The notes under the pieces are model-generated. The model ran no database searches. It was not told the DNA's origin and was given only the letters and a program-made list of their open reading frames with translations. A DNA stretch of 53,043 nucleotides. It comes from Smithella sp. PtaU1.Bin162 (GTDB lineage: Bacteria > Desulfobacterota > Syntrophia > Syntrophales > Smithellaceae). Location of the stretch: positions 1 through 53,043 of the forward strand of contig MVRV01000137.1 of the NCBI GenBank assembly GCA_002068015.1. The letters are read 5' to 3'. Below, one piece after another: positions 1,111 to 25,224 of this stretch. Positions within the stretch are counted from its first letter, which is position 1. Each line of letters opens with the position of its first letter. A program made the position numbers and the translations under genes.

Positions 1111-1227
1111 AAAACAGAAGTTTGCTTGGAAATTTTTTCCATCAATGGTAAAGATATAAAAGGATAGCATGTAATTCCTGAAAGACGGTTGATCGGATTG
1201 TCGCCGTCTTTCCGGAAAAACCTTTTA

Positions 1228-3228
1228 ATGTCGGGAATGCCGATGGACGGATTAAAATTTTTTCATCAACTGATCATCATTCTTGGCTTTTCCATTCCCG
1301 TTATTTACGTCTTTAATAAAATCAAGCTGCCTTCCATTATTGGTTTTCTTATTACCGGCATTATCATCGGGCCTTTCGGTTTGCGGCTGATCGATGATAC
1401 GGCCGGGATTCAGCTTTTAGCGGAAATCGGCGTCGCCTTCCTGCTTTTTACCATCGGCATCGAAATGCGGTTTACCCGCTTTTTGAAAAATCTGTCGGAA
1501 CTTCTGCTGACGGGCGGTCTCCAGATACTGTGCACATTTATTGCTGGTATGTTGATCGGGCTGGCGATGCAGTTGAACATCAATCAGGCGGTTTTCATCG
1601 GTTTTATCCTTGCCCATAGTTCTTCCGCCCTTGTTTTGAAGATACTTAAGGACCGGGGGGACGAAGATTCGCCGCAGGGCAGAACATCGGTCGGCATAAT
1701 ATTGCTTCAGGATGTGATGGTCGTGCCGATGATGCTGCTTATTCCGTTTCTGGCCGGCGGCAGCGGACCCGGTGCACCGATTATTATCTGGAAGCTTGTC
1801 AAATCCGCTTTGATTATTGCCGTTATTCTGGCGGCGGCCCGCTATATCGTTCCTTTTGTGCTGGAGAGACTGGTCAGCATGAACATGCGCGATATATCGC
1901 TGATTGCTTCTCTGGTCATCACAATGGGTATTGCCTGGATTACGGAATCGCTGGGATTGTCGCTGGCCATCGGTGCATTTCTCGCCGGGCTTGCTCTGTC
2001 CGATACTGATTTTACACACCAGATCATCAGCGACATCAATCCTTTTCGCGATGTGTTTCTGTCGGTATTTTTCGTCTCTTTCGGCATGATTCTTAATATT
2101 GATTTCCTGCGGGAAAACACCCTCTATATTCTTTTAGCATCGCTCGTCATTATTGCAGTCAAGGCCGCCATTGTTTTGGGAATTATAAAATTCCTGAAGC
2201 AGCCCCTGCGCGCGGCGCTGATTTCCGGCGTTCTACTGTCACAAATCGGTGAATTTTCCTTTGTTCTGGCCTCACAGGGATTCAAAAACAACATTATTGA
2301 CGTTAATATTTATCAGACATTTATCGGTGCCGCCGTTTTGACTTTTATTGTTACGCCTTTGCTTGTTTCCCTGGTTTATTACATTCTCGCGCGAAAAATT
2401 AATTCCGCTTCGATTCCGGAAGTTAAACCGGATTCCTGCGTGGATATGTGCAATCACGTGATTATCTGCGGCATGGGGCTAAACGGCCGCAATCTCGTCA
2501 AGGTTCTGAAAAAAACCGCCATTAATTATGTGATCGTTGATCTGAATTATCAAAAAATTAAAAAATCAAAAAGTAAAGGCGATAAAAATACGATCTGGGG
2601 CGATGCCTCGAATGTGGAAATACTGCGGCGGGCCAACGTTGCGGCTGCGCGCGTAATAGTGATCGCCATTTCCGACCGGTTTCTGACGAAAAGCTGTCTG
2701 TCCCAAGCCAAGGCGTTGAATCCCCGACTGCACGTAATTGTCCGGACAAAGTATGTTGCCGATATTGAAGATCTGCTGGCTTTGGGAGCAGACGATGTTA
2801 TTCCCGAGGAATTCGAAACATCCATCCAGATATTCAGCAGGGTCTTAAGAATGTTTCATGTTCCCAACAGCATCATTCTCACCGAAGGGAACATTATCCG
2901 CAATAAGTCTTATGGTGTTTTCCGGGAGGTGCGTTATACTCAGGAAGCATTTGACCAGATCAACCAGATTCTGGCGCAGGGAACCATTGAAACATATTTT
3001 GTCGGCGATAATAATGAAATTATCGGTAAAAGCATCCGTGATATAAATCTCAAAGCCCAGTCGGGAGCGATGATCATTAACATTATCCGCAGCAACCAAA
3101 CGATTACCAATCCGCCCAGTGATTTCATCTTCCGGGCGGGCGATCAAATAATTCTTTTCGGCAGTCATCAGGCAATTGATACGGCGCTTGTTATACTGGG
3201 AGGTAAAGAAGGAAACGGTATGGAATAG
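1228..3228 (+). CDS. KefB/CPA2-type cation:proton antiporter with TrkA-N and TrkA-C domains
   Basis: An inner-membrane protein with about 12 hydrophobic segments over the first 400 residues (Na+/H+ exchanger fold, with the typical LPSIIGFLITGIIIGP segment). It is followed by a cytoplasmic Rossmann RCK/TrkA-N domain starting near IICGMGLNGRNLV (GxGxxG nucleotide site) and a TrkA-C domain in the last 80 residues. The build matches KefB/KefC-like monovalent cation (K+ or Na+)/H+ antiporters, gated by nucleotide or small-molecule binding to RCK. The start is uncertain: a TTG at 1189 and ATGs at 1228, 1237 and 1243 are all in frame with only weak ribosome sites; family N-termini favour 1228-1243. 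Stand-alone gene, converging on otsB. Confidence 0.85.
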   Translation: MSGMPMDGLKFFHQLIIILGFSIPVIYVFNKIKLPSIIGFLITGIIIGPFGLRLIDDTAGIQLLAEIGVAFLLFTIGIEMRFTRFLKNLSELLLTGGLQILCTFIAGMLIGLAMQLNINQAVFIGFILAHSSSALVLKILKDRGDEDSPQGRTSVGIILLQDVMVVPMMLLIPFLAGGSGPGAPIIIWKLVKSALIIAVILAAARYIVPFVLERLVSMNMRDISLIASLVITMGIAWITESLGLSLAIGAFLAGLALSDTDFTHQIISDINPFRDVFLSVFFVSFGMILNIDFLRENTLYILLASLVIIAVKAAIVLGIIKFLKQPLRAALISGVLLSQIGEFSFVLASQGFKNNIIDVNIYQTFIGAAVLTFIVTPLLVSLVYYILARKINSASIPEVKPDSCVDMCNHVIICGMGLNGRNLVKVLKKTAINYVIVDLNYQKIKKSKSKGDKNTIWGDASNVEILRRANVAAARVIVIAISDRFLTKSCLSQAKALNPRLHVIVRTKYVADIEDLLALGADDVIPEEFETSIQIFSRVLRMFHVPNSIILTEGNIIRNKSYGVFREVRYTQEAFDQINQILAQGTIETYFVGDNNEIIGKSIRDINLKAQSGAMIINIIRSNQTITNPPSDFIFRAGDQIILFGSHQAIDTALVILGGKEGNGME

Positions 3229-3298: not shown

Positions 3299-4066
3299 CT
3301 ATCTTTTAATCCTTTTGGCTATTTTGTTTATTTCGCGCAAGAGCCGCGTGATTTCATGCTGGTCTTTCAAATAGAATTTAGCCCTGCTGCCGGATTTTCC
3401 TCCTATCTGGACGGTAAAAATATTTTCATCGTCCAGCCGAAACACGTCCTCATCCGTTTCATCATCACCGGCAAAAAAACCCTTTGGACAAGCCGCCTGC
3501 CGCATCAGAATTTTCAGGGCGATTCCCTTGTCCGGTGCGTTTTCCGGAATAAGGTTTTCGATACATTTGCCGCTGACCCGCCGGGGTCTGGGAACCAGCT
3601 TGTGTATGGCGCGAAGGATCGAGGCATGGGCAACTTCAATATTATCTGCATAGCGATAGTGAATAGACAGCGTCGTACCCTTGTTTTCGATGGAAATCCC
3701 ATGCCTGTCGTTAAACGGCAGCAGCAAGGTCAATTGATCCTGCCAGCTGTCAGCCGTGCGGCTGAATTCTTTTTCCCGCATCCTCCATTCCGCAAGTCCC
3801 TCCGCCCCGTGGTTGCCGATAAGGTAGCGGGGACTAATGCCAAGATGAGACCGGGCATCATCACAAGACCGGCCGGTTATAACGGCAACATTCATCGACT
3901 TGTTCAGAATGGCGAGCTCTTTCCGAACCGCCTCCGGAATGCCGATGTTGCCGGGATCGGGTACTATGGGTGCCAGTGTTCCGTCCAGATCAAAAGCAAA
4001 AAGTGTTGCGCGGTCAACAAAACATTCCATGGAGGCAAGGGCACTGTCTTTAAAGAGATAAATCAT
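3299..4066 (-). CDS. otsB: Trehalose-6-phosphate phosphatase (OtsB)
   Basis: This HAD-superfamily enzyme removes phosphate from trehalose 6-phosphate to give trehalose. The 255 residues show HAD motif I (DLDGT, nucleophile Asp26 and Asp28), motif II (VITGRS near 62), the OtsB-typical GNHGAEG at 84-90, and motif IV GDDETDEDVF near 200. Length is normal for OtsB. It starts 13 nt after the otsA stop, so the two pathway steps are co-transcribed; the ribosome site is weak, which suggests translational coupling to otsA. It is the last gene of the glucokinase-GH15-otsA-otsB run. No intrinsic terminator is visible in the 70 nt between it and the convergent antiporter gene. Confidence 0.92.
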   Translation of the reverse strand: MIYLFKDSALASMECFVDRATLFAFDLDGTLAPIVPDPGNIGIPEAVRKELAILNKSMNVAVITGRSCDDARSHLGISPRYLIGNHGAEGLAEWRMREKEFSRTADSWQDQLTLLLPFNDRHGISIENKGTTLSIHYRYADNIEVAHASILRAIHKLVPRPRRVSGKCIENLIPENAPDKGIALKILMRQAACPKGFFAGDDETDEDVFRLDDENIFTVQIGGKSGSRAKFYLKDQHEITRLLREINKIAKRIKR

Positions 4067-4079
4067 GTTTTACCAACGA

Positions 4080-6332
4080 TCATGGCGAAATGCCGATTTT
4101 GGCGGCCAGTTTTTCGCGCTGTCGGATCCGGGCGGCATCGAGCAGCATCCGGGCGGCCCATCTGTAAACGTTAAAGTCGCGAACCAGTGAGCGCATACTG
4201 CGCATTCGTGCCTGCTGCTCGAATTCAGGCATGGTAATGGCCTGATAGAGCGCTTCGGCCGTCTGTTCAATATGGTAAGGGTTGACGATCAATGCTTCGT
4301 ACAACTCGTGGGCGGCGCCGGTAAACCGGCTGAGCAGCAGAACGCCTTTTTCGTCGTCGCGGGCCGCCACAAATTCTTTGGCCACCAGGTTCATGCCGTC
4401 ATGCAGACTGGTGACCATGCAGATATCGGCGGCGCGATAGTAGCGGTTGACGTCTTCCGGTTCATGGTGCTCGATTTTAAGATGTACGGGCAGATAAGAT
4501 TCGTGGGAAAACCTTTTATTGATCCTTGCGGCCAAGTCCCGGACACGAGTGTCGAATGTTTGGTATTCTTCCAGGGCGGAGCGTGAAGGGGCGGCAATCT
4601 GGACAAAACAAAACCGTCCGATCATATGGGGGTAGTTCTCCAGAAGGTATTCGACGGCCCGCAGACGTTCCAGAATTCCTTTTGTATAATCCATTCTATC
4701 CACACCCAATCCGATCAGACAATCCTCTCCGATTTTCAGTAATTGCCGAATTTCCTTGCGGCATTCGGCAATCGCAGGCTGACTTTCCTGCCACGGCGTC
4801 GGCCATTGAATGGAAATGGGATAAGCCTCCACCAGAGTCAGATTGCCGCTGTGGAAGATTGTCGATGAGGCATGGTCGATCCGCGTCTCCATATGTCGAT
4901 CTACGGTTTCTATGAAATTTTTGCAATGAAAAGGCGTGTGAAAGCCGAGAATGGTGCTTCCCAGCATTCCTTGCAGCAGCTCTTCCCGCCAGGGGCAGAT
5001 GCCGAAAGATTCAGGATTGGGCCAGGGGATATGCCAGAAGGTGATGATGGTTGCCTTGGGTAATAATTTGCGGAGCATACCCGGCAGGAGCGCAAAGTGA
5101 TAGTCCTGAACAAGCACGACGGGATCTTCCCTGTCCGTTTCTCTTACGACGGCCTCGGCGAAGCGCTGATTGATCGCCATATATTGATTCCAGTCACCGC
5201 TGCGGAAGATGGGGCGCACGTGCGCAATATGACAAAGCGGCCATAATCCTTCGTTGGCAAAACCATAATAATAACCTTTTTCTTCCTCCTGTGTAAGCCA
5301 GATGCGCCTGAGCGTATAATCCGGATGTTCCGGCGGAACGCGAACACGGTCCTTTTTATCCACGACTGCGCGATCTGCCGTACCACTGCCGTGAGCGATC
5401 CATATTCCCGAACAGGCTCTCAGAACCGGTTCCACGGCGGTTACAAGGCCGCTGGCCGGACGGTGAATTTCGATTCCTTCCTTTACGGCTACGTGAATAT
5501 ACGGTTCGCGATTGGATACGACAAGAATCTGTTCTCCCGTAAATTGCGTATAAAGCAGGTTGCGCAATGACTCGGGATTCCAGGAAAGAGTAACATCATC
5601 GGCAATTCTTTTTTCCGCATCGATTGTGCGCAGCAGGGCGCGCAGATCTCCCACCAGCGGCTGCAGCTCGGAGTTGGAATTTTTGGTAAAAGTCCTGATC
5701 ATGCCTTCTCCGCGCAAGAGCGCACGGACGCCCGTCATCCAGCCGCGCCAGCTCAGATGAGCAACCAGCACTGTAATAAAAGAAGTAACGAGGCAGAGAA
5801 CGGCAAAAAGCAGCAGGATATATTTGCGTGTATCCGCACTGCGGCGTTCCACATAGCTCATGTCGTGAACTAAAACAAGCGATCCGGAGGGAACGCCGTC
5901 TATGGAAACGGGATTGACGGCGACATGCACCAGGCCTCGGGGTAATTGCAGCAGCGACGGCGATTCATGGGCGGACGCATTCGGCAGGGAGCAGCCCAGC
6001 TTATCGGGGAACGTCGGGGTATGGTATAATATTTTACCCTGTTCCGTGCAGTAACCAATTGCAAAAAGGCGTTCGTCCTGAGTCGCCCGCGCAAGCAATG
6101 TGCGGATTTTAGTTTTGTTTCCCTGCTCCAGAAGTCCGGTAAGCGGTTCCTGCAGGGTGCGTGTGATAAGTTTTGAACGGATATCCAGATCGCGGACGGA
6201 CCAGCGCAGCGTCAGCTTGTCCATGAGCGGCACAACCGCATAAGCCAGCAGTGTCATGACCGCAACCAGAGGAATGACAAAGCGCAGCGCCAGCCGCAGG
6301 GAGCGGGAAGACCGTATTTTTTGAAGACTCAT
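4080..6332 (-). CDS. otsA: Trehalose-6-phosphate synthase with N-terminal membrane sensor-like region
   Basis: A GT20 synthase joining UDP-glucose and glucose 6-phosphate into trehalose 6-phosphate. At 750 aa it is about 280 residues longer than E. coli OtsA. Residues 1-267 hold TM1 (about 16-37), an extracytoplasmic segment of about 130 residues, TM2 (about 170-192) and a HAMP-like linker, the layout of a chemoreceptor or kinase input. The GT20 domain starts near 268 with VSNREP (272-277), HGSGTAD (314-320), QDYH (409-412), WHIPWP (433-438), Arg546/Lys551 in [10 protein letters not shown] and DGMNLVAKE (645-653), so the catalytic set looks complete. A GAGGAAG ribosome site precedes the start. 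It sits 19 nt after the GH15 gene. The sensor role of the N-terminus is inferred from topology only; a simple membrane anchor is the alternative. Confidence 0.92.
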
Positions 6333-6351: not shown

Positions 6352-8142
6352 CTAAAATGCGCTGTCCCAGCGTTTGCTGAGGCGGATGGCGGAATTGATC
6401 AGACCGACCATACTGTAGGTCTGAACAAAGTTTCCCCAGAGATCACCGGTTCGCGGATCAACATGTTCGGACAAAAGACCATGAATGTTTCGCCGGGTCA
6501 GCAGGTTTTCGAACAGGCTGCGGGCCTCTTCCGTGCGGTTCAGCGCAACCAGGGCATATATGTACCAGAAAGTACAAACCACAAAAGCGTTTTCCGGGAT
6601 GCCGAAGTCATCGGTTTCGATATAACGGTAAATGTAATCGCCGCGTTTCAGTTCACGCTCGATAGCTTCAACCGTTTGGGCGAAACGCGGATCGGAAGAC
6701 GAAAGAAACCCCAGATCATGCAGAAGGAGAAGGCTGGCATCCAGCGAATCTCCAGCGAAATGGGCGGTGAAAGCCCGTTTCTTTTTATTCCAGGCCTCCC
6801 GGCAGATGGTGGCATGAATTTCATCCGCCCGGCTTCGCCAGTACAGAGATCGATCCGGAAGCTTCAGATGAACGGCAATCCGGGCAAGGCGGTCGCAGGC
6901 CGCCCAGCACATGATGCTTGAAAAAGTATGAATGCGTGTAGATGTTCGATTTTCCCACGGTCCGGCATCCGGCTGATCATGGCAGGCGATGGCCGCTTCG
7001 CCCAGAGGTTCCAGGCGCCGGAAAAGGGATTCGTCGCCACGATGCGCGAAGCGCCGGTCAAAGAAAATATGGGTGACGGCCAGAATGGCCGATCCGTAGA
7101 CATCGTGCTGATGCTGATCGCAGGCCTGGTTGCCGATTCGCACAGGTCCCATTCCCCGGTAGCCGGGAAGACTTTTCAGCTCACATTCGTCAAGGCGTGC
7201 CCTGCCGTCTATTCCATAGACCGGCTGTATGCGGCCGTCCGGCCGTCCGGCCGCCACATTGATCAGATAACTTAAATATCGTTCCATGGAATTTGTCGTG
7301 CTGAGGCGGTTTAAGGCATTGACGACAAAATAAGAATCCCTGATCCAGCAGTAGCGGTAATCCCAATTACGTCCCGATCCCGGTGATTCGGGAAGAGAAG
7401 TGGTCATGGCGGCGATTATGGCGCCCGTATCTTCAAAAGTGTTAAGCTTCAGGGTTATTGCGGCCCTTATCACTTCATCCTGCCATTCGAAGGGAATGGA
7501 GAGGTTGCGGACCCAGTCATGCCAGCCGGCGATGGTTTCCTCGAGAAACCGGCGGGAAAGATCACCGATGGCGGCCGGAATCGTTTCATCCGGTCCCAGG
7601 ATCAGGGTCACGGTATCTTCTAGAAAAAACGACGTTTCTTCCAGCAGCGCGGTTACCGATGCATCCGTTGTCAAACGCAAAATCCAGGCTGGTGCCACAT
7701 AACGGATGTGATGGCTGCCGTGGGTGATGATGCAACCCTGGCTGCCGTATTCGCAAAGAGGACGAATGCGCACGCAGATGCGGGGTGTCCCGGAAATACG
7801 CCGGATCCGCCGGATTATCATCATCGGCATAAACATCCGGCCGTATTGATGAAAACGCGGAGCGAAATCAGTTACTTCCACAACACCGCCGTGCCTGTCC
7901 GTAAGACGGGTGACAAGGACGGCAGTATTGGCCAGATAAAATTGCTCCGCCGCCACCTGATCCGATAATTCGACGATGCAATAACCGGAGCCTTCACCAT
8001 CGGGGTGTTCGCGCAGCAGTGAGCAGAAAGTCGGGTCGCCGTCGAAGCGCGGCAGGCAACACCAGACAATTTCGCCTTGGTCGTCAATCAGGGCGCCGAT
8101 ACGGCAGTTGCCGATCAAACCAAGATCCAGAGAATTTTTCAT
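6352..8142 (-). CDS. Glycoside hydrolase family 15 (trehalase/glucoamylase-like)
   Basis: The 596-aa product has the GH15 layout: an N-terminal beta-rich domain, then the (alpha/alpha)6 barrel with RNWDYRYCWIRD in the middle and, near the C-terminus, EHVDPRTGDLWGN with the expected catalytic Glu. No signal peptide is present, so it acts in the cytoplasm. GH15 enzymes release glucose from alpha-glucosides; beside otsA/otsB and a glucokinase, trehalase activity is the most likely (as for actinobacterial GH15 trehalases), but maltooligosaccharides cannot be excluded. The start at 8142 is chosen over an upstream TTG at 8172 because GGAG lies 7 nt before it. Confidence 0.88.
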   Translation of the reverse strand: MKNSLDLGLIGNCRIGALIDDQGEIVWCCLPRFDGDPTFCSLLREHPDGEGSGYCIVELSDQVAAEQFYLANTAVLVTRLTDRHGGVVEVTDFAPRFHQYGRMFMPMMIIRRIRRISGTPRICVRIRPLCEYGSQGCIITHGSHHIRYVAPAWILRLTTDASVTALLEETSFFLEDTVTLILGPDETIPAAIGDLSRRFLEETIAGWHDWVRNLSIPFEWQDEVIRAAITLKLNTFEDTGAIIAAMTTSLPESPGSGRNWDYRYCWIRDSYFVVNALNRLSTTNSMERYLSYLINVAAGRPDGRIQPVYGIDGRARLDECELKSLPGYRGMGPVRIGNQACDQHQHDVYGSAILAVTHIFFDRRFAHRGDESLFRRLEPLGEAAIACHDQPDAGPWENRTSTRIHTFSSIMCWAACDRLARIAVHLKLPDRSLYWRSRADEIHATICREAWNKKKRAFTAHFAGDSLDASLLLLHDLGFLSSSDPRFAQTVEAIERELKRGDYIYRYIETDDFGIPENAFVVCTFWYIYALVALNRTEEARSLFENLLTRRNIHGLLSEHVDPRTGDLWGNFVQTYSMVGLINSAIRLSKRWDSAF

Positions 8143-8175
8143 GATATGTCTCCAGTCCGAATAATTGTGCAATCA

Positions 8176-8259: not shown

Positions 8260-9243
8260 TTAAGTCATTGCATTTTCTCCGCACGAGGCAAGCTCACTCC
8301 AGATGAGCGCTGCCGCCCCCATAACGGCGCCGTTTCCGGTTTTTATTTCGGAAAGCAGAAGCTTTACGGTACCGCGGTATGTCCGAAACAGAAAAGTGTC
8401 CAGATAGCGCCGGGTAGGTTCCAGTAATAAATCTCCGGCTTGGGACAATCCTCCCGCCAGGAATATGGCTTCGGGGCTGGTATGCGCCACGGCATCGGCC
8501 AGTTTTGATCCCAAAATGCGCGCAGTCCGGTCGAATGTTTCGAGGGCAATGGCATCACCGGCCAGGGCCATTTCGTAAATGCGTTTCGACGTCATCTGGC
8601 TGTATTTCAATGACCGCAGACCGCTTACAATATTCTGCCGGGCAAGCAATATCATTGCCGTCCTTCTTATGCCGTTTGCCGACACATAAGTTTCCAGGCA
8701 GCCGCGTTTTCCACAGCCGCATTGGCGGCCTTCGGGATCAACAACGACATGTCCCAGTTCTCCGGCAAAACCGCTGGCTCCGTGAAGCAGACTGCCGTTG
8801 GCTACTATACCGCTTCCCAGGCCGGTGCCCAGAGTTATTACAATAAAGTGTTTCATCCCGCGGGCACCTCCGAAAATCATTTCACCGATCGCAGCGGCGC
8901 CCGCATCATTGGTGATGGAGACCGGGAGATTATAATGCCTCCGGAAAAGAGCGACGAGGTCAACGCTTTCTCCCCAGTTTAAATTTACGGCTTTCTCGAT
9001 GGTTCCCCGGTAGTAGTTGGCATTAGGAGCGCCGATGCCGATGCCGATCAGACGATGACCGGGAGACAGTTTTTTTCTGGTGTTTTCGATGTGCTGGTGC
9101 AGCCGGATTACAAATGCTTCGGCAGGATTGTCGGCTTCCGTAGATATAACCGTGCCGCCTTGCACGACTCCCTTACGATTTACAAATCCGAAGGATGTTT
9201 TTGTGCCGCCGATATCGATACCAAGAACAAGATCATTCTGCAT
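8260..9243 (-). CDS. ROK-family glucokinase
   Basis: The 327-aa cytoplasmic kinase carries the ATP phosphate-loop LGIDIGGTKT at the N-terminus, NDAGAAAIGE (catalytic Asp), TLGTGLGSGI, the ROK signature around GELGHVVVDPEG, and the zinc-binding CGCGKRGCLE. These mark an active ROK sugar kinase; glucose is the likely substrate given the GH15 enzyme downstream. Its product glucose 6-phosphate is one of the two OtsA substrates, so the four genes can form a cycle. The start at 9243 has GGAG 6 nt upstream; an in-frame start at 9339 would add 32 residues not typical of the family. Confidence 0.9.
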   Translation of the reverse strand: MQNDLVLGIDIGGTKTSFGFVNRKGVVQGGTVISTEADNPAEAFVIRLHQHIENTRKKLSPGHRLIGIGIGAPNANYYRGTIEKAVNLNWGESVDLVALFRRHYNLPVSITNDAGAAAIGEMIFGGARGMKHFIVITLGTGLGSGIVANGSLLHGASGFAGELGHVVVDPEGRQCGCGKRGCLETYVSANGIRRTAMILLARQNIVSGLRSLKYSQMTSKRIYEMALAGDAIALETFDRTARILGSKLADAVAHTSPEAIFLAGGLSQAGDLLLEPTRRYLDTFLFRTYRGTVKLLLSEIKTGNGAVMGAAALIWSELASCGENAMT

Positions 9244-9764
9244 CGCAAACTCCGATTTTTTTTCATCAATAACACGGTGCGCGCTTATCCGGAGACAACT
9301 GTGTCGCCGACCACGCCGTTTAAGATTAATCTTCCGCACACGGCCGGAATTGAAAATAATAGTTTTTATCGCACTGTGAACTTTGGAATTGGACTGGTTG
9401 ACGCATTAAGCAGACACATCCGGATGTGTCTTTCCCCAAACGACAAAACGGCTCGCGCCGTCTCTGCTTTTCGCAAGACCAGTACGGTATTACCGCATTA
9501 CTGGAATAAGGAAAAGCAGAATTACTTAATCGGTTTTTGAATGTTCCTGCGTTTTATAGAATCCGGTCTGGAGGTACCCCTTGATCGGATTATGATGAAG
9601 TATAAGAAAAGCCGTCCGATATGTCAATACGGAAATTGTTTTGTCCGGCCGGATTAGAAATGTTCTGTATGTGTGATAACCGGATGATCCTTTTGCTGTG
9701 CTCGGTGCGATCAGGAGCGATGGCATTTGATGTTCGGCGACAGGGCGAATTGCGAAGCAGCCGT
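9244..9764. other. 521-nt intergenic region with two palindromes
   Basis: This stretch lies between the glucokinase start and the MgtE stop. ORFs on both strands here read through the flanking genes in the wrong frame and have no recognisable content. The only clear structures are a perfect 20-bp palindrome at 9412-9431 (AGACACATCC and its complement, no loop) and a small hairpin ACGGC-TCGC-GCCGT at 9448-9461. Both lie 170-220 nt upstream of the glucokinase start. No convincing sigma-70 promoter was found. Confidence 0.55.
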
Positions 9765-10760
9765 TTATTTGCCCAGGATTAAAGCAGCGAGGGAAAAATA
9801 GGTAAGGATGGTGCATATATCGGCCAGCGCCAGAGTCAAAGGTCCCGAAGCAACCCGCAGGTCAAGGCGGAGTTTATGCAGCAGAGATGGAACACTCACG
9901 CCGATAAGACAGGCAAGGAGTAACGAAATCAGGATGCCCGATCCGATGACTGTTCCCGCCGGAACATCGCTTCTCCAGATTACGGCAATACTGCCGACAA
10001 TCAGGCCGCAGGCACAGGCCAGAAGTAATGTGCGCAGAAGTTCGCGTCTTAAAGATTTGATGTACCAGCCCTGCCGGCTGCTTTGGTGATGAATTGCATG
10101 AACAGTAATGGCCATGGTTTGCATGGATACGCTTTCCCCCAGCCCCAGCACCAGTGTCAGAAAGAAAGCGAGGATCAGACTTTCCGCCAAGGTAACCTGA
10201 AACAGGCCGACCAGCAGCGCGCAGATGGTTCCGCTCATAATGGTCGCCAGAAGCCAGGGAAAGCGATAGCGAAACGCCTGCCAGACGGATTTGGTCTTAA
10301 GTTCAGAAATTTGAACGCCCAGGGTGTCAAAAATACTATGGATTTGTTCTCTTTCTTCCATGTCGAACATCTCCTGGGTAAAGACACCGACGTCGATGAC
10401 TCCCAGTATATGACCTTCGGTATTCACGACGGGGAAAGCCAGATATTTATGCAAAACAAAAAACTCCAGGGCATCCATCAGTGTGGCTGATTCGGGTATG
10501 ACGACGAGGTTGGTTGCCATGATGGATTCCACGCGCGTATCCAGGGGAGACGTAAGTAATTTGCGTGTCTGGATACTGCCGACCAGCCGGTTGTTATCAT
10601 CGAGGACGTAAAAATAAAGAATAGTTGATTCGGGTTGTCTTTGACGGATGTTTTCGAGAGCTTCCTGAATGGTATCATAAGTGTAAACTGTTACATAATC
10701 TGTGCTGGCGTGGCTCATCACGGGTTTATCAAGGTCAGAAGATGAAATAGTCTCTATCAT
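9765..10760 (-). CDS. Short MgtE-type divalent cation transporter (CBS pair + MgtE membrane domain)
   Basis: The 331-aa product has two CBS domains (about residues 15-130) followed by five hydrophobic segments (about 165-330). The membrane part contains the MgtE-like GLGESVSMQTMAI segment. Classical MgtE is about 450 aa and begins with a superhelical N domain that senses Mg2+ together with the CBS pair; that domain is absent. The protein starts directly at the CBS region, so this is a reduced MgtE-like Mg2+/cation channel rather than an obvious truncation. The ribosome site at the ATG is weak. The gene follows the hybrid kinase by 84 nt on the same strand and could be co-transcribed with it. 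Confidence 0.82.
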   Translation of the reverse strand: MIETISSSDLDKPVMSHASTDYVTVYTYDTIQEALENIRQRQPESTILYFYVLDDNNRLVGSIQTRKLLTSPLDTRVESIMATNLVVIPESATLMDALEFFVLHKYLAFPVVNTEGHILGVIDVGVFTQEMFDMEEREQIHSIFDTLGVQISELKTKSVWQAFRYRFPWLLATIMSGTICALLVGLFQVTLAESLILAFFLTLVLGLGESVSMQTMAITVHAIHHQSSRQGWYIKSLRRELLRTLLLACACGLIVGSIAVIWRSDVPAGTVIGSGILISLLLACLIGVSVPSLLHKLRLDLRVASGPLTLALADICTILTYFSLAALILGK

Positions 10761-10844: not shown

Positions 10845-13061
10845 TTATTTTCTCAGTTCTTCTTTTATCGCCAAACCAAGTTCTTCCAGAATTAACGGTT
10901 TCTTGATGTATCTTCCCGCTCCCAGCCTCTGGGTTTCTTTTACCTGTTCCGTTTCCGCAAAGCCGCTGAAGATGATGGCTTTTTGCTGCGGATGGATTTT
11001 TTTTATCCGCGCATAGGTTTCCCGTCCGTTTATTCCCGGATCCATGATCATGTCCAAAAGCAGCAAATCGACCGTATGCTCTTTCAAATATTCGACCGCT
11101 TCTTCTCCTCCGGAAACAGACAGGGCTTTGTAGTGCAGTGTTTCCAGCATTCCGCAGGAAATTTCCCTCTGACTCTGGACGTCATCTATGACCAGAACCG
11201 TCTCTCCGTTTCCGTATAATTTCCCAAGCGGAACGGATACTTTATCGGCGGCCTTTTCCCTTGTAATGGGGAAGTAAAGCTCAAATCTGGTACCTTCCTT
11301 GCCGCTTGTCACATTGATGCAGCCGTCATGATCCTGCATGATATTCCAGACGACGGTAAGTCCCAGACCGGTGCCGCTGCGGCCCATTATTTTCTTTGTG
11401 TAAAATGGTTCAAAAATGCGATTGATGTCATCAGGTGATATTCCCCGCCCGGAATCCTCTATTACTAAAACGGCATATTCGCCAATGCTTATATCATTAC
11501 AGCCCGAAAGCGGTTTGTCGATATAACGGTTCATAGTTGCAACAACGACAGTTCCTTTGCCTTCGATAGCCTCCGCGGCATTGGATATAAGGTTCATTAG
11601 AACTTTGCGAACATGATCCGTAGAACCTTTGATGTTTAATAATTCCGGATCCAATTCTTCTTTAACCGTAACCTGCGGGTGGTACTGCAGAAGTTTTTTA
11701 TATTCGGGAGATTTTAAATATTCACTGATCAAGTCATTGAGCTTGAATGGTTCCTTGTTGATGGCTACGCCTCTGGCCACGGTTAATAAATCCTGAACTA
11801 TGGCGGCTGCTTTCAATCCCGATTGCTGCATGGTTTCGATCGGCTTTCTGAGTTTGCTGTCCTCGGGCATGGTCATTAAAAGTATATCCGGATAGCTGAC
11901 AATACCCGCAAGAACGTTGTTTAAATCATGAGCAACGCCGCCGGCGAGCAGTCCCAGAGATTCCATCTTTTTGAGGCGAATAAGTTTTTCTTCAGTTTCC
12001 CGATAGGTATTTTCATTGCGGATTCTTTCAGTAATGTCACGTATCACCGCCATGGCCGCCGGTTTGTTCCTGTAGCTGATGGAGCTCAGACGGATTTCAA
12101 CGTTTTTTTCTTCACTGTCATCTCTTTTTATGCGCACCTGCAGGGAATCGGAAAAATTAACGGACAGCAAATTGTCCTTATGCTTCAGTATTTTTTTTCT
12201 GTCTTCCGGCACGATGATTTTTATAAGTTCTTCCACTGCCGTATCCGTTACCGGATGACCGATCAATCTGCTGCAGGCGGGATTTCCGAAAATAGTTTTC
12301 CCATCCTGAATTACCATGATGGCGTCGTTGGCAAACTCGGTAATAACCCGATATTTATCTTCCGCCGATATATCTATGTAGTTATGAAAAACGCCCCAAT
12401 CGACAATAATGGCAAAAACCAAAAATCCGTATTCCATAAGATACTGAACCGTCGGGACGCCTAGTGATGCCAACCCGTCATGAATTCCCAGCGCATACCA
12501 GAAGATAATGCCGGAGAGGTATAAAACTCGTTGCCTGGTTGTCAGACTTTTGGCTTTGAGCCACAAGATAATGACACCAATGGCGGCGAGCATTATATAT
12601 GCTTCAAAAGCCGGTCCCAGCGCTCCCACCTCCGGTTCGATAAAAGGCCTGGCGAGCCAGAGAAAATTGCGGACGGCAAAACTGTCGGAAACTATTAAGT
12701 TTGTGGACCACAGAATAATCAGGACAAAGACATGAAAACAACCCGCCCAGAGATGATAACGCCGTTGCGGCATCCCAAGATAGGTTAATGTGAATCCGTA
12801 AAAACAATGGACAAGCAGAAGAAGTGCCGTAAATTCCAGAAGACCGGCAAACCGATTGAGACTGCCGGCGGTTGTATTGTATTCGAGAAAAATGCCGATT
12901 GCGTAAATCATGCTGGCAAAAGAGGTTGCTGCACCCCAGATATACCAGCCGCTGCGGGGTTTTCGGAAAAAGAAAGTGATCTGCACGATCAGCATCAGAA
13001 ATGCTAAAACAGCCACCGACAATGATCCGGCCGATTGCGGCACAATACTTTCTATTATCAT
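10845..13061 (-). CDS. Membrane hybrid histidine kinase (7TM-PAS-HisKA-HATPase-REC)
   Basis: 738 aa. Residues 1-222 form about seven transmembrane helices with short loops, like the 7TM N-terminal domains of some kinases. A PAS domain (about 236-345) follows, then HisKA with AHDLNN (phospho-His378), and a HATPase with N-box (Asn494), DSGRGI (536-541), FEPFYTKK and GTGLGL. The C-terminal receiver (about 622-738) has the phospho-acceptor Asp670, an acidic pair (VIDD) and Lys720. All catalytic positions appear intact. No output domain or cognate regulator is adjacent, so the signal must leave through another protein. A GAGGGGGAA ribosome site precedes the start, and a good sigma-70 promoter lies about 140 nt upstream. 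Confidence 0.9.
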   Translation of the reverse strand: MIIESIVPQSAGSLSVAVLAFLMLIVQITFFFRKPRSGWYIWGAATSFASMIYAIGIFLEYNTTAGSLNRFAGLLEFTALLLLVHCFYGFTLTYLGMPQRRYHLWAGCFHVFVLIILWSTNLIVSDSFAVRNFLWLARPFIEPEVGALGPAFEAYIMLAAIGVIILWLKAKSLTTRQRVLYLSGIIFWYALGIHDGLASLGVPTVQYLMEYGFLVFAIIVDWGVFHNYIDISAEDKYRVITEFANDAIMVIQDGKTIFGNPACSRLIGHPVTDTAVEELIKIIVPEDRKKILKHKDNLLSVNFSDSLQVRIKRDDSEEKNVEIRLSSISYRNKPAAMAVIRDITERIRNENTYRETEEKLIRLKKMESLGLLAGGVAHDLNNVLAGIVSYPDILLMTMPEDSKLRKPIETMQQSGLKAAAIVQDLLTVARGVAINKEPFKLNDLISEYLKSPEYKKLLQYHPQVTVKEELDPELLNIKGSTDHVRKVLMNLISNAAEAIEGKGTVVVATMNRYIDKPLSGCNDISIGEYAVLVIEDSGRGISPDDINRIFEPFYTKKIMGRSGTGLGLTVVWNIMQDHDGCINVTSGKEGTRFELYFPITREKAADKVSVPLGKLYGNGETVLVIDDVQSQREISCGMLETLHYKALSVSGGEEAVEYLKEHTVDLLLLDMIMDPGINGRETYARIKKIHPQQKAIIFSGFAETEQVKETQRLGAGRYIKKPLILEELGLAIKEELRK

Positions 13062-18342: not shown

Positions 18343-19464
18343 CTAATCCAGACGTTTTTTAAACCGGCTGATGGCTCCGGTAAAAACGGCAATTCCCAGG
18401 ATGAGCAGTGCGAGATACTGAGGCCAGAGAATATCAAGGGCTATTCCCTTGAGAAATATGCCGCGGACAATGACGAGAAAATAGCGCAGGGGATTGAGAT
18501 AGGTAAGCCACTGGACAAGTAAAGGCATATTGGCGATGGGGAAAATAAAACCGCTCAGCATCAAAAAAGGCAGAAGGAAAAAGAAGGTCGTCATCATCGC
18601 CTGCTGCTGGGTGGTGGAGATGGTCGAGATAAAAAGTCCGATTCCCAGAGTGCTCATGAGAAACAGGCAGGTGGCGAAAAATAAAAGAAAGATGCTGCCC
18701 ATCAAAGGTATTTCAAACCAGAAAATGGCGACGGCGATAATCGCCGCCATTTGGGCAAGCGCGATGATTATATAAGGAATAGTTTTGCCGGTGATGAATT
18801 CTGCCGCCGAAAGCGGGGTGACGATCAGCTGTTCCATGGTACCCGCTTCTTTTTCCCGGATGATGGCAATGGAAGTCAGAAGCAGGGAAATCAGCATGAC
18901 CAGAAAAGCGACGATGCCCGGTACAAAAAAGTACTGGCTGTCGAGATTGGGATTATACCATGTGCGGATACGGGCATCGATTTTGCCGTAGCTCATGTGT
19001 TGCGGGTAGAGTTCGCGGATCATGCTGCGGTTGAACCGGTCGAGCACCGTGGAAGTATAGGCCATCCGGAGCGATGCCATATTGCTCATGGTGCCGTCGG
19101 CGAGAATCTGAATTGCCGCGGTCTCACCTTTCCTGATGACTGCTGCAAAATTCTGAGGGATTTTGATTCCCATATCAATGTCGCCTTTGAGCAGAAGGTC
19201 TTCGAGCTCACGGTCGGATCTTACGTTATGGGTAATATGAAAAATGTTGCTCCCCACGAAAGTATCCGCCAGTTTGCGGCTTTCGTAGGTTTGCGAATAA
19301 TCCAAGAGCGCGACGCGGATATTACTGATGTCGTAGTTGACTACATAGCCGAAAACAAGCATCTGGATAAAGGGCGCAATAAACAGCACTACGCGGTTGC
19401 GTTTGTCGCGCAGCAGCTGAATGAATTCCTTGCGCACCAGTTCCCGTATCCTGAGCCAGTTCAT
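18343..19464 (-). CDS. ABC-2 type exporter permease (YbhR/YhhJ-like)
   Basis: The 373-aa inner-membrane subunit shows one TM near the N-terminus (about 25-45), a large extracytoplasmic region, and about five TM helices over the last 200 residues, the ABC-2 permease layout shared with YbhR and YbhS. The REKEAGTMEQLIVTPLS segment is a family hallmark. It is the last gene of the exporter operon; its ATG overlaps the stop of the preceding permease by 4 nt (ATGA). The two permeases are related in sequence and presumably form a heterodimer. Confidence 0.88.
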   Translation of the reverse strand: MNWLRIRELVRKEFIQLLRDKRNRVVLFIAPFIQMLVFGYVVNYDISNIRVALLDYSQTYESRKLADTFVGSNIFHITHNVRSDRELEDLLLKGDIDMGIKIPQNFAAVIRKGETAAIQILADGTMSNMASLRMAYTSTVLDRFNRSMIRELYPQHMSYGKIDARIRTWYNPNLDSQYFFVPGIVAFLVMLISLLLTSIAIIREKEAGTMEQLIVTPLSAAEFITGKTIPYIIIALAQMAAIIAVAIFWFEIPLMGSIFLLFFATCLFLMSTLGIGLFISTISTTQQQAMMTTFFFLLPFLMLSGFIFPIANMPLLVQWLTYLNPLRYFLVIVRGIFLKGIALDILWPQYLALLILGIAVFTGAISRFKKRLD

Positions 19465-20594
19465 AGGCCTTCCTTTTTGAGCAGAATATAATTAATGGTC
19501 GTGATGACCAGAGAGATCAGAGCCAGTATCAGCATGCTCGGCCAGAGATAATCAAAACCCAGATTTTTCAGATAAATACCTTTCAGAATTTCGATAAAAT
19601 ATGTCGCCGGAACAAGATATGTTATCGCCTGCAGGAACACGGGCATGTTGATTACCGGAAAAACGAAATTGGATAGAAGAAGCGAGGGCAGATAAGTGGC
19701 TAAAATGGCCGTCTGGTTGGCGATAAGCTGTGATTTGGATGCCGTGGAGATCAAGAGCCCCAGAGAAAGGGCAACGCCCAGATAGAGCAGGGAGGAGATA
19801 ATCATAAGCCAGAAATTGCCTTTCATAACGATGCCAAACAGCAACTGTCCCAGAAGGACGGCGATTAAAACATCGGCAAGCCCGATGACAAAATAGGGGA
19901 GCGATTTGCCGAGCAGAAATTCACCGGCTCTGACCGGGAGCGACTTGATGGTTTCCATAGTGCCGTTTTCATATTCACGGGCGATGATTAATGATGTCAA
20001 AAGAGCGCCGACAATCATGATGATGATGGCGATTATTCCGGGAATGATGAAGTTACGGCTTTCCAGCTCTTCGTTAAACCAGATACGGATGCGCCCGTCC
20101 ACCGGCGGCTTTATCTGCTTTTGGCCCTGGCGGTTCAAGAAATTAAACAGCAGTTTCGAATTATATTGCTCGGTAAAAGCCGTAAGATAACCGCGAATGA
20201 TGCCGGCAAAGTTGGGATCACTGCCGTCGATGATAATCTGCAGGGCGGCTTCCCTGTCGGCGCGGATGGTTTTTGAGAAATCAGGGGGAATGATGAGGGC
20301 GACTTTTGCCTCGTCGCGGTCGATATAGGCGGACACTTCTTTTGTGCCGGACGCCTGGAGGGTGACGTTGAAGTAAGGCGAGGCTGCAAGTTTCCGGATA
20401 AAATCGCGGCTTACATCCGAGCGGTCGTAATCCACAACCACCGTGTCCACGTTATCGACATCGAGGCTCAACGCATAACCGAAAAGAACAATGAGCATCA
20501 GAGGAATGGCAAAAGCAAGGTAAAGGCTGCGGTAATCCCGGATGAGATGATAAAATTCCTTGCGGGCAAGGGCTCTGATTCTTAAGGGATTCAT
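19461..20594 (-). CDS. ABC-2 type exporter permease (YbhS-like)
   Basis: This 377-aa permease has the same topology as its downstream paralogue: one N-terminal TM, a long periplasmic loop and a C-terminal bundle of about five TMs. The REYENGTMETIKSLPV coupling segment corresponds to REKEAGTMEQ in the partner. It overlaps the upstream ATPase gene by 4 nt and the downstream permease by 4 nt, so all are translated as a unit. Partner of two ATPases, an HlyD adaptor and TolC in export of an unknown (drug-like or lipid) substrate. Confidence 0.88.
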   Translation of the reverse strand: MNPLRIRALARKEFYHLIRDYRSLYLAFAIPLMLIVLFGYALSLDVDNVDTVVVDYDRSDVSRDFIRKLAASPYFNVTLQASGTKEVSAYIDRDEAKVALIIPPDFSKTIRADREAALQIIIDGSDPNFAGIIRGYLTAFTEQYNSKLLFNFLNRQGQKQIKPPVDGRIRIWFNEELESRNFIIPGIIAIIIMIVGALLTSLIIAREYENGTMETIKSLPVRAGEFLLGKSLPYFVIGLADVLIAVLLGQLLFGIVMKGNFWLMIISSLLYLGVALSLGLLISTASKSQLIANQTAILATYLPSLLLSNFVFPVINMPVFLQAITYLVPATYFIEILKGIYLKNLGFDYLWPSMLILALISLVITTINYILLKKEGL

Positions 20595-21346
20595 GAGTTA
20601 CTCCTCGCCATCAGCTTGATAAAAGCGTCGTTCAAATCGGCATCGGGAATTCCGGGGCAGGCCGCCGCAACTATTTCCGCGGGGCTTCCCGAGGCCACGA
20701 TAGCGCCCTGATTGAGCATGACGATTCTTTCGCAAAACTTCGCTTCATCCATATAATGTGTTGTCACGAATATTGTTATCTGCTCCCGGGCCAGCTCACG
20801 GATAAATGTCCAGAAATGCCGGCGCGTGACGGGATCAACGCCGGAGGTAGGTTCATCAAGAAATAAAATATCCGGCTTGTGCAGAAGCGAGCAGCCGAGA
20901 GCCAGCCGCTGCCGCCAGCCGGGCGGCAGTTCCCTGGTCAGGCGTCTTTTAGCCTCAGTAAGCCTTGTCATATTTAAAACCCAGTCGATACGCTTTGGCC
21001 ATTTCTTCTGCGGTACGTTATAGATTCCCAGATAAAAGCGCAGGTTCTCGTAAGTGGTGAGATCCTCATAGAGTGAAAACTTCTGTGACATGTAACCGAT
21101 GGATTGTTTTATTTCTTCCGGCTCCGTCATAATATCGTGGCCAGCAACCTGCCCTGCACCGGAAGTAGGCGTGATAATTCCGCACAGCATGCGGATGGTT
21201 GTTGATTTCCCGGAACCGTTTGCCCCGAGGAAACCGAAAATTTCGCCTTTTTTGACGGAAAAAGTAATTTTGTTCACGGCGATAAAAGCGCCGAATCTCT
21301 TTTCCAGATTGGTAACCGCAATGGACTCAGAATTGGAAAGAATCAT
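20591..21346 (-). CDS. ABC transporter ATP-binding protein with variant signature motif
   Basis: The 251-aa ATPase has Walker A GANGSGKST, the Q-loop region YMSQKFSLYEDLT, Walker B ILFLDEPTSGVDP and an H-loop His in VTTHYMDEA. The ABC signature is LPPGWRQRLAL instead of LSGGxxQ, a variant I associate with the C-terminal half of YbhF-like proteins. Together with the upstream ATPase it would give one standard and one non-standard ATP site, i.e. a split equivalent of the fused E. coli YbhF. AAGGAG precedes the start, and the gene overlaps the preceding one by 20 nt. Confidence 0.88.
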   Translation of the reverse strand: MILSNSESIAVTNLEKRFGAFIAVNKITFSVKKGEIFGFLGANGSGKSTTIRMLCGIITPTSGAGQVAGHDIMTEPEEIKQSIGYMSQKFSLYEDLTTYENLRFYLGIYNVPQKKWPKRIDWVLNMTRLTEAKRRLTRELPPGWRQRLALGCSLLHKPDILFLDEPTSGVDPVTRRHFWTFIRELAREQITIFVTTHYMDEAKFCERIVMLNQGAIVASGSPAEIVAAACPGIPDADLNDAFIKLMARSNS

Positions 21347-22100
21347 TTATTAACTCCTTGTCCACTTCTTGAATGCGTTTGATGATGGCATCTTCGAGCG
21401 AAGAAGATTGGCCGCGGATGGCATCCGGTGTATCCGTGTCGAGCAGAAGCGAATTGTGCATCAACCCCAGCTCGTTGCATCTTTCGCCTTCGTCCAGATA
21501 GGCGGTGGAAATAAGAATTGTCATACCTTCTTTTTGCATATTGCTTAAGATATTCCAGAATTCATGCCGGGAGACCGGATCGACGCCGTTGGTCGGTTCA
21601 TCGAGAATTAATAATTGCGGTTCATGCACCAGAACACAGGCGAGCCCCAGCTTCTGCTTCATGCCGCCGGAGAGCTGACCGGCCGGCCTCTCCACAAACT
21701 GCAACAGATTCGAAAAGCCCAGATATTTTTCTTTTCTTTTTTTCCTTTCCGTTCCGGGTATGCCGAAAATATCCATGAAAAAATTAATGTTTTCATCGAC
21801 CGTGAGATCCTGATACAGACCGAAGCGTTGCGGCATATAACCGATAATGTTCTTTATCTTTTGTCTTTTCGCGGCGAGATCGAAACCGCTTATGCTGATA
21901 CTGCCGGAAGAGGGTCTGAGCATCGTGGCGATCATGCGCAGGAGCGTCGATTTTCCGGCGCCGTCGGACCCGACAAGACCGAAAATACTGCCGGTATCGA
22001 CGCGGAAGGAAACATTCCGGACTGCTTCCACGGCCTGGAAGCGCAGAGAAACATTTTTGACTTCCACCATGGGCTGCGGATATTGTGGTGCTGCATCCAT
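21327..22100 (-). CDS. ABC transporter ATP-binding protein with canonical signature
   Basis: The 257-aa ATPase shows Walker A GSDGAGKST, signature LSGGMKQKLGLA, Walker B LLILDEPTNGVDP and a YLDEGERC switch region. It corresponds to the N-terminal half of E. coli YbhF. The start at 22100 is chosen over an ATG at 22133 because AAGGGGG lies 8 nt upstream and because it then begins 16 nt after the adaptor gene instead of inside it. The intact signature suggests this subunit contributes the hydrolysing site with the partner's Walker motifs. Confidence 0.88.
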   Translation of the reverse strand: MDAAPQYPQPMVEVKNVSLRFQAVEAVRNVSFRVDTGSIFGLVGSDGAGKSTLLRMIATMLRPSSGSISISGFDLAAKRQKIKNIIGYMPQRFGLYQDLTVDENINFFMDIFGIPGTERKKRKEKYLGFSNLLQFVERPAGQLSGGMKQKLGLACVLVHEPQLLILDEPTNGVDPVSRHEFWNILSNMQKEGMTILISTAYLDEGERCNELGLMHNSLLLDTDTPDAIRGQSSSLEDAIIKRIQEVDKELINDSFQF

Positions 22101-22116
22101 TGCGCCGACCCCCTTC

Positions 22117-23127
22117 TCACCGCAGCCAGGCATCGGCGGGCATACCTGTTTTGAGTTCGTGGCCGGGATTAGCGATGGATACTTTGACGAGATAAACCAG
22201 TTTGACCCTTTCCTTTTTGGTTTGAATGATTTTCGGTGTGAATTCTCCTTCCTGGGAAATAAAGGAAACGGAGCCCTTGTAAATTTTACCCGGGAAGGTA
22301 TCCACTTTTACATCCACCGGCTGGTTCGGTTTGACCAGGCCGATTTCCGTTTCATCGACGAAAATTTTCAGATCGACCCGGGAAAGATCGGAGATGGTAA
22401 TTACTTCGCGTCCTGCGGTGACGGTTTCGCCGGGCTCAATATTGCGGCTCGTGACAATACCGTTTTGCGGTGATTTTAGTTGTGTATAGCCGAGTTGGAT
22501 GGCTGCCTGATTTGCCGCAGCCCTGGCCGCATCTATCTGGGAGGCGGCCGTATCGATCTCCTGGCGGGCGGCATCAATTTTGGTGAGATTGCCGCGGGCC
22601 AGTTTCAGAACCGCTTCGCTTTCCGCAAGCCTGGATTTGGCGACATCGTAGGCGAGTTTCAGGGCGTCACGTTCCTTTTCCGTGACCACGCCTTTTCGGA
22701 ACAGTTCCTCATAGCGCCGGTAATTTTTTTCCGTATCGATGAGTGTATCTTTTGCGCTCCCGGCATTGGCTTCCGCCCGTGATACCTCTGCGGGCAGGGT
22801 GCTTTTGTAAATGTTCAGAGCGGTTTCCATCTGCAGCTTTGCTTTTTGAGACCTTGCGAAATTGGCTTCGGCCTGAGTGAGGCGCGATTCGGATTCCACA
22901 CGGTCCAGTTCGGCAATTATCTGATCCTTGGTTACCGCCTGGCCTTCCTGTACATGAACTTTCGCAATGCGGCCGGGAACCTGAAACGACAGATTGGCCT
23001 GCGTGGCCTCGATCGTGCCGGAATAGAAGAGTTCCTTTTGTTTGTTATTTTGCTGGCCGAAATAGACCAGAAGGCCTACACCCACAAAAAAAATTATAAA
23101 AACAATCACTATGATACGCTTTTTCAA
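22117..23127 (-). CDS. HlyD-family membrane fusion protein (YbhG-like)
   Basis: The 336-aa periplasmic adaptor has an N-terminal TM anchor (about 4-22), a split lipoyl/biotinyl half-motif (FQVPGRIAKVHVQEGQAV), a long coiled-coil hairpin (about 75-200) and a beta-barrel region ending near GMPADAWLR. It bridges the ABC permeases and the TolC channel. The start is a TTG whose TGA overlap with the repressor stop (TTGA) and GGAGG 7 nt upstream make it convincing. It sits directly after the repressor gene, as in E. coli cecR-ybhG. Confidence 0.9.
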   Translation of the reverse strand: MKKRIIVIVFIIFFVGVGLLVYFGQQNNKQKELFYSGTIEATQANLSFQVPGRIAKVHVQEGQAVTKDQIIAELDRVESESRLTQAEANFARSQKAKLQMETALNIYKSTLPAEVSRAEANAGSAKDTLIDTEKNYRRYEELFRKGVVTEKERDALKLAYDVAKSRLAESEAVLKLARGNLTKIDAARQEIDTAASQIDAARAAANQAAIQLGYTQLKSPQNGIVTSRNIEPGETVTAGREVITISDLSRVDLKIFVDETEIGLVKPNQPVDVKVDTFPGKIYKGSVSFISQEGEFTPKIIQTKKERVKLVYLVKVSIANPGHELKTGMPADAWLR

Positions 23128-23789
23128 CTTGCATCCTCCGTGTTGGACTTTTTAACAGCTCTTAATATCAGCCGGGCTACTTCCCGGGCGATATTTCCTT
23201 TTATTTTTTTATCCTGTTCTTTAACTTCTGCCGGTATCCAGGTTTGCTTTTCCCTGAGCGGAATGCTTCCTTTGTAAAAAAGTATGGACCCTAAGATCAT
23301 CATATGCAGAAGAAATGGTACTGTTTTAATGAAAACGCCTTTTTTTGTCCCTTCTTCCATAATGCCCATCAGAATTTTTATTACTGAAGCAAAATCTTCG
23401 ACGACCAGGCGGGGCAAATTCGTGCCGCCGGAAGCAATTTCCCGCATCATGATCGATGGTAATTCCGGATTTTTGTCCACAGCCTGCGCTATGCAGGTGA
23501 TGTATGACCGAAGCTTATCTTCGGGAGTCTGGGCAAGCCCGACCGCCCGGGCAATATCCTGGGAGACGCTGCCGATAACCTGATGAATGACATTGGCATA
23601 GAGAGTGGCTTTATCGCCGATCTGGTAATAGATAGTGGCTTTATTGACTGCCGCCCGGCGGGCGATTTCATCCATCCGCGTGCCGCTGTAACCGAGTTCG
23701 GCAAATACCTTTCGTGCGGCGAGTAATATTTTTTCCGCCGTTTTGCCCGGTTCTTCCATGCTTGCTTCTTTTTCAATCAACTGCTTCAT
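23124..23789 (-). CDS. TetR/AcrR-family repressor (CecR-like)
   Basis: 221 aa with an N-terminal helix-turn-helix domain (about 17-65; ILLAARKVFAELGYSGTRM, then NKATIYYQIGDKATLY) and a helical C-terminal ligand domain. Family members repress the exporter operon they belong to and release DNA on ligand binding; the E. coli cecR/ybiH locus has the same gene order downstream. Here the gene lies between tolC and the adaptor gene, so it would autoregulate through the operator upstream of tolC (25225-25249). The ligand is unknown. An internal ATG ten codons in is a possible alternative start. Confidence 0.88.
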   Translation of the reverse strand: MKQLIEKEASMEEPGKTAEKILLAARKVFAELGYSGTRMDEIARRAAVNKATIYYQIGDKATLYANVIHQVIGSVSQDIARAVGLAQTPEDKLRSYITCIAQAVDKNPELPSIMMREIASGGTNLPRLVVEDFASVIKILMGIMEEGTKKGVFIKTVPFLLHMMILGSILFYKGSIPLREKQTWIPAEVKEQDKKIKGNIAREVARLILRAVKKSNTEDAS

Positions 23790-23850
23790 TGATGTTTTTT
23801 ATTACCCTCGAAACTTATTTTCTTTATCTGATCATGATTATTAAATAAAA

Positions 23851-25191: not shown

Positions 25192-25224
25192 TTCTTCACC
25201 CCATCTTGCGGCGCAGTTTTTTTT

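Follow-up and report, generated by a model that had tools for sequence, protein, structure and literature searches.

A Conserved Membrane Fusion of a Probable Sensor-Type Module and an OtsA-Type Trehalose-6-Phosphate Synthase in Smithella

Introduction

In Smithella sp. PtaU1.Bin162, the putative trehalose-6-phosphate synthase (TPS) is joined to a membrane-spanning N-terminus that is very probably a module of the sensor type. This membrane sensor-GT20 fusion is real, conserved and widespread: the same architecture, which a sequence-only reading of the gene had suggested looking for in other genomes, was recovered from two phyla, in 88 non-identical homologues that fall into three N-terminal sequence groups. 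Here, the window refers to the whole stretch of DNA that was analysed, the 53,043-nucleotide contig MVRV01000137.1 of that organism. Transmembrane Cache/HAMP modules are mainly carried by kinases, chemoreceptors, cyclases and c-di-GMP enzymes; GT20 is not known to serve as the output of a receptor, a point that weighs against the sensor-enzyme reading proposed below.

Gene and Domain Organization

The open reading frame at 4080-6332 starts on the minus strand with an ATG at 6332, directly 5' of which lies the purine-rich AAAGAGGAAG, and reads through 750 codons without a stop. It is the one GT20 gene found in this Smithella genome. From the N- to the C-terminus the protein presents a first transmembrane segment (TM1), a 130-residue extracytoplasmic domain, a second transmembrane segment (TM2), a HAMP-like linker and an intact OtsA-type GT20 domain (Table 1), with the hydrophobic segments at residues ~18-38 and ~169-192 bordering the loop in the hydropathy profile. 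Because the N-terminus is collinear and kept in close relatives, with which the whole protein shares 57-83% identity, it is not an artefact of annotation.

Table 1. Features of the sensor-type synthase gene and of its neighbours, in positions of the window
Feature	Position	Strand	Basis or remark
Kef-type monovalent cation/proton antiporter	1189..3228	+	PF00999 + TrkA_N + TrkA_C; convergent with otsB
Trehalose-6-phosphate phosphatase OtsB	3299..4066	-	TIGR00685, 97.6 vs 68.05 bits; 13 nt 3' of the synthase gene
Putative sensor-type trehalose-6-phosphate synthase	4080..6332	-	750 aa
GT20 catalytic domain, residues 268-735	4128..5531	-	Pfam; OtsA/TPS fold; alignment to 5jij
Conserved W-x-P/A-x-x-L-R helix joining linker to catalytic domain, residues 250-267	5532..5585	-	AF2 helix 253-265; alignments
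Linker, best described as HAMP-derived, residues 193-249	5586..5756	-	AF2 topology; profile match to group-b HAMP segment
TM2, residues 169-192	5757..5828	-	hydropathy; AF2
Predicted single-Cache/PAS-like sensor, extracytoplasmic, residues 39-168	5829..6218	-	AF2; Foldseek and VIA matches, residues 39-169
Cys114, second of the extracytoplasmic Cys pair	5991..5993	-	alignment A1; Cys-pair count
Cys95, first of the extracytoplasmic Cys pair	6048..6050	-	invariant in alignment A1
Short basic N-terminus and TM1 (~18-38), residues 1-38	6219..6332	-	hydropathy; AF2 helix 8-70
GH15/TREH_N protein (trehalase-like)	6352..8172	-	PF00723 + PF19291 over cut-off; directly upstream of the synthase gene
ROK-family glucokinase-like protein, first gene of the cluster	8260..9339	-	PF00480; TIGR00744 just under cut-off

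The catalytic part matches Pfam GT20 (PF00982) over residues 269-732 with an E-value of 1e-116 and 391 bits against a cut-off of 32.5, covering model positions 3-470 of 473, and it superposes on the trehalose-6-phosphate synthase 5jio with a Z of 32.4 and an rmsd of 3.5 over 449 residues. Alignment to 5JIJ gives the active-site positions R275, G295, Y356, W364, D410, H434, R546, K551, R584, D645 and E653, which we take to have the residue roles of E. coli OtsA. In the membrane-type homologues R275, G295, W364, D410, H434, R546, K551 and R584 are identical throughout (93/93), and Y356 is kept in 86 of 93; D645 and E653 are each kept in 92, the remaining sequence having a gap there. The fold match and these conserved residues thus argue that the enzyme part is intact, and together with the Pfam match and the hydropathy profile they confirm the initial description of a complete GT20 domain behind two transmembrane segments and some 130 residues. 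The NCBIfam equivalog model for OtsA (TIGR02400) scores 407 bits, under its cut-off of 564.85, so the protein is an OtsA-type relative and not an OtsA equivalog. The assignment of trehalose-6-phosphate as its product is indirect, being suggested by the adjoining otsB gene.

The Extracytoplasmic Domain

The AF2 model of residues 1-268, built from a shallow alignment of 15 rows, contains helices at 8-70, 73-84, 159-206 (TM2 and beyond) and 224-249, and sensor strands at 89-96, 101-104, 126-130, 133-144 and 147-157; the pLDDT of the sensor is mostly 83-90, except in the loop 111-130. Between the two transmembrane segments, AF2, Foldseek and VIA agree on a long N-terminal helix and a five-stranded antiparallel PAS-like sheet. 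Foldseek ranks a WalK model first (E 2.6e-7, 270 columns), ahead of sensor domains from WalK, KinD, CusS, CitA and chemoreceptors, and the Foldseek and VIA sensor matches over residues 39-169 also include LuxQ and DctB. Against the extracellular domain of WalK, VIA aligns 120 positions within residues 39-169 at a Z of 11.6 and an rmsd of 2.8; the VIA Z values lie under ~13, the level that the tool sets as a caution for models with long helices, but the matches share one fold class and span the domain. In nearly all of the VIA rows given, the partner is the sensor domain of a kinase, a chemoreceptor or a GGDEF protein. The structure prediction that had been called for thus led to a fold of sensor domains (WalK, CitA, CusS, LuxQ and chemoreceptors), and the extracellular region of WalK has been assigned to the Cache superfamily (PMC4822843).

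Sequence profiles are less direct. The window protein itself has no Cache match in Pfam, and its N-terminus, searched against solved structures by phmmer and by profile, returned nothing useful; NCBIfam likewise gave no sensor or HAMP match for it, except a weak one to the heavy-metal-kinase N-terminus model TIGR01386 over residues 1-269 (E 5e-4). A profile of the sister group found weak matches among solved structures (best E 0.02), all of them HAMP or signalling-receptor chains. Group-b proteins (other Desulfobacterota and L021) match sCache_3_2 (1.9e-5) and dCache_3 (8.4e-6), both below the Pfam cut-offs, and the sister group also matches dCache_1, its Cache matches having E-values of 1e-4 to 1e-6, under the cut-offs. 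The search for Cache and HAMP models proposed at the outset was thus answered by the sister group (sCache_3, dCache and HAMP) and not by the window protein.

The loop is well conserved, the poor conservation that would have spoken against a sensor being absent. Between the window protein and the four most divergent sequences aligned (Geobacter, Desulfuromonad and Bdellovibrionales), identity is 40-59% in the loop, 54-75% in the HAMP-like stretch and 66-76% in GT20. W44, R47, D48, C95, C114, H136, D157, W195 and W198 are among the residues invariant in 25 sequences. The predicted Cache/PAS-like fold, the conserved loop with its Cys pair and the Pfam matches of the sister group uphold the first view of the N-terminus as something more than a hydrophobic anchor, and we regard it with high confidence as a sensor-type module.

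The Linker

The linker following TM2 had been called HAMP-like, a claim that stands through homologues (group b, the group-a intermediates and L021) and fails for the window linker itself, since the window protein has no match to Pfam HAMP. Ten HAMP domains from the window's own genome served as the reference. Against these, the group-b linker reached 91% (E 1.3e-7), where column-shuffled versions stayed at or below 2%; L097, L099 and L100, the intermediates of group a, also reached 91% (E 1.1e-6). The window's Desulfobacterota subgroup gave 0.2%, like control segments. L021 passes the gathering cut-off of Pfam HAMP with 25.5 vs 25 bits, and a broad profile of group a finds the HAMP segment of group b at 88%, with no shuffle above 15.5%. 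In the alignment, the first linker helix is ~4-5 residues shorter in the window's group than in group-b HAMPs. With its HAMP identity seen through homologues and intermediates and not by a direct match, the window linker is best described as HAMP-derived and degenerate. The AF2 model beyond TM2 has a helix at 159-206, a connector at 207-223 and a helix at 224-249, with a low pLDDT of 43-69 over 191-230; this low confidence, and the missing significant match to a HAMP profile, make signal transfer through the window linker uncertain.

Homologues and Evolution

Full-length collinear relatives occur in Syntrophaceae, Geobacter, Desulfuromonadaceae and Bdellovibrionales, and two transmembrane segments ~130-180 residues apart are present in 88 of the 93 membrane-type homologues. 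The Cys pair is found in all 60 proteins of group a, to which the window protein belongs, in all 10 of group c (Bdellovibrionota) and in none of the 18 of group b. Comparison of the profiles of groups a and b gives a probability of 99.7% across 261 columns. In a quick maximum-likelihood tree of 95 GT20 domains, whose root is weakly supported and in which several forks are open, the membrane-type proteins cluster (81 rows, SH-aLRT 96), with different sensor groups within the cluster.

Four proteins of the same subfamily, L141, L142 and L149 of Bdellovibrionota and the Aminobacter plasmid protein WP_083948901 (L047; L073 in the tree; 54% identity), are 49-60% identical to the window protein over GT20 and membrane attached; they differ from it in having one transmembrane segment only and no extracytoplasmic domain. 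On the tree these proteins require four independent changes, a pattern consistent with the sensor loop having been lost repeatedly while the anchor stayed, and the single-TM variants were apparently derived about four times. L093, with one transmembrane segment, and L098 and L103, with no N-terminus, have broken frames or are cut short and were left out of this count. Among 359 plasmid records with GT20 matches, none covered 80% of the query, so no plasmid copy of the two-TM form was observed. One Bdellovibrionota genome (G536) encodes three membrane GT20s, namely one of the window type (C10), one with a single transmembrane segment (C9) and a divergent one with two (C29).

Some apparently larger fusions were rejected, as the extra N-termini of L124 and L143 (1113-1279 aa), L147 (1845 aa) and L138 and L140 (900-1005 aa) are no domains but low-complexity stretches of open frame upstream of the start codon that the family normally uses. 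A tandem expansion of near-identical GSSQIGSSEV-type repeats was observed in the sensor loop of L116 (G298:C55), just before the last strand.

The Trehalose Cluster and Its Neighbours

The genes for the ROK protein, the GH15/TREH_N protein, the sensor-type synthase and OtsB follow one another on one strand with gaps of 13-90 nt. The NCBIfam trehalase models match the GH15/TREH_N protein far below cut-off; its position beside the synthase gene points to trehalose synthesis and probable degradation within one cluster. The order GH15-TPS-OtsB is kept in all 10 Syntrophaceae loci examined and also in Geobacter and a Deltaproteobacterium; the ROK gene is present in the five Syntrophaceae loci where the locus is long enough, and one Bdellovibrionales locus has the same genes with GH15 reversed.

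Homologous clusters carry NhaA, ClC, MscS or SSF transporters in place of the Kef-type antiporter. At the Geobacter locus L043, NhaA overlaps the end of otsB; a ClC channel does so in L045, and an MscS channel lies upstream in L044. Of 54 genomes, 14 have NhaA, PF00999 or ClC within 5 kb of the sensor-type synthase, where random placement would give 0.71; for NhaA and PF00999 alone the count is 11/54, as compared with 2/54 for soluble TPS in the same phylum (Fisher p 0.015, the soluble control covering antiporters only, without CLC), and these p-values are optimistic, the transporter families having been picked after a few loci were viewed and the genomes being related. The antiporter/ClC neighbourhood is supportive, not conclusive, for an ionic or osmotic role.

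Farther along the window, a 331-residue CBS-MgtE protein, below the usual MgtE length (9765-10760, minus strand), lies between the trehalose cluster and a hybrid histidine kinase (10845-13061, minus strand), ~1.5 kb beyond the cluster, with a weak HisKA_7TM N-terminus, PAS, HisKA, HATPase and receiver domains. A probable export operon at 18343-25272 (minus strand) encodes an outer-membrane efflux protein and two permeases of the ABC-2 type, interspersed with unannotated open reading frames.

Proposed Mechanism and Alternatives

The N-terminal module, in our judgement, probably regulates the enzyme. More specifically, the protein is reasonably likely to be a one-component transmembrane sensor-enzyme, whose Cache domain would modulate trehalose-6-phosphate synthesis through the HAMP-like linker. 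Sensor and linker would mediate dimerisation. An extracytoplasmic signal would alter the sensor, and the change could travel through TM2 and the linker by analogy with chemoreceptors and kinases, altering the arrangement of the GT20 domains and hence their activity. OtsB from the adjacent gene would then dephosphorylate trehalose-6-phosphate, and recycling of trehalose to glucose-6-phosphate may fall to the GH15 and ROK proteins. Among classes of signal, ionic, osmotic or envelope stress is the likeliest, and we name an ionic or osmotic cue, osmolarity having been the initial suggestion, tentatively.

In line with the null alternative of the first reading, the same N-terminus could serve simply as an anchor or scaffold, placing the synthase at the membrane, for example near OtsB, GH15 or a transporter, with the Cache-like domain as a relic or an interaction surface. 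The single-TM relatives, at no fewer than four separate places in the tree and including the Aminobacter plasmid protein, indicate that the enzyme can do without a sensor while attached to the membrane, and the degenerate HAMP of the window protein points the same way. However, a bare anchor needs neither a loop conserved across families and phyla, nor a Cys pair in 70 of 70 proteins of groups a and c, nor the full predicted sensor fold, nor a recognisable HAMP in other groups, so all of these count against it; three different N-termini on the three membrane GT20s of one genome (G536) do so as well. We consider the anchor unlikely.

Less probable still is a redox or metal sensor, in which a thiol-disulphide or metal switch at C95/C114 would set the activity of the synthase in place of osmotic sensing. 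The pair persists in groups a and c despite their far-diverged sequences, and CusS is among the structural matches; yet its absence from all of the group-b proteins means that the architecture does not require it, and it may simply be a structural disulphide. We think it very improbable that the GT20 domain makes a different product from another sugar-phosphate acceptor, such as glucosylglycerol-phosphate, and that the sensor controls another pathway. This would accord with the shortfall against the OtsA equivalog cut-off (407 vs 565 bits), but the OtsA model scores far over the GgpS model of NCBIfam (407 vs 292 bits), the OtsB and trehalase-like neighbours are conserved, and the donor and acceptor site positions of OtsA are kept.

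Relation to Known Systems and Significance

The window protein shares its fold and active-site positions with the GT20 enzymes OtsA/TPS of E. coli (1GZ5) and Mycolicibacterium thermoresistibile (5JIO), and OtsB adjoins it here. Those enzymes are soluble and ~450-490 residues long, whereas the window protein adds 267 residues of transmembrane segment, sensor, transmembrane segment and linker. The latter arrangement, a PAS/Cache-like domain between two transmembrane segments followed by a HAMP-type linker, is common to Cache-HAMP receptors, such as the kinases WalK/YycG, CitA and CusS and the chemoreceptors Mlp24 and Tlp3. The output differs, a metabolic glycosyltransferase taking the place of a kinase, MCP, GGDEF or cyclase domain, and proteins of the window's group have a shorter HAMP that has diverged. 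The parts belong to known families, and no description of a Cache/HAMP-GT20 fusion was found in the open-access literature searched, where the combination appears to be undescribed. Cache/HAMP-GT20 architectures may already figure in domain databases.

In Geobacter sulfurreducens, GSU2337-GSU2336 encode a trehalose-6-phosphate synthase and phosphatase beside mrpABCDEFG, the Mrp Na+/H+ antiporter GSU2344-GSU2338 (PMC2700814). GSU2337 was described as "containing a domain" like the M. tuberculosis TPS, and the pair was credited with osmotolerance (PMC2700814). Judged by this description, in which the N-terminus is not described, and by gene context, GSU2337 is a probable member of the family, and G. 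sulfurreducens would offer a cultivable model if this is confirmed.

Taken together, the family might constitute a receptor class, found in at least two phyla and with sensors of at least three diverged groups, that has as its output an enzyme making a compatible solute. Its Cache domain would translate ionic or osmotic conditions outside the cytoplasm directly into trehalose synthesis, bypassing kinases, second messengers and transcription; we advance this as a tentative proposal. Here, the type of input otherwise known mainly from signalling proteins is attached to an enzyme of primary stress metabolism. Relatives that carry different sensors, that have one transmembrane segment or that are soluble represent natural controls. 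If the coupling is true, a purified protein would suffice to test an extracytoplasmic sensor that regulates a glycosyltransferase, and osmolyte control would lie within one membrane protein.
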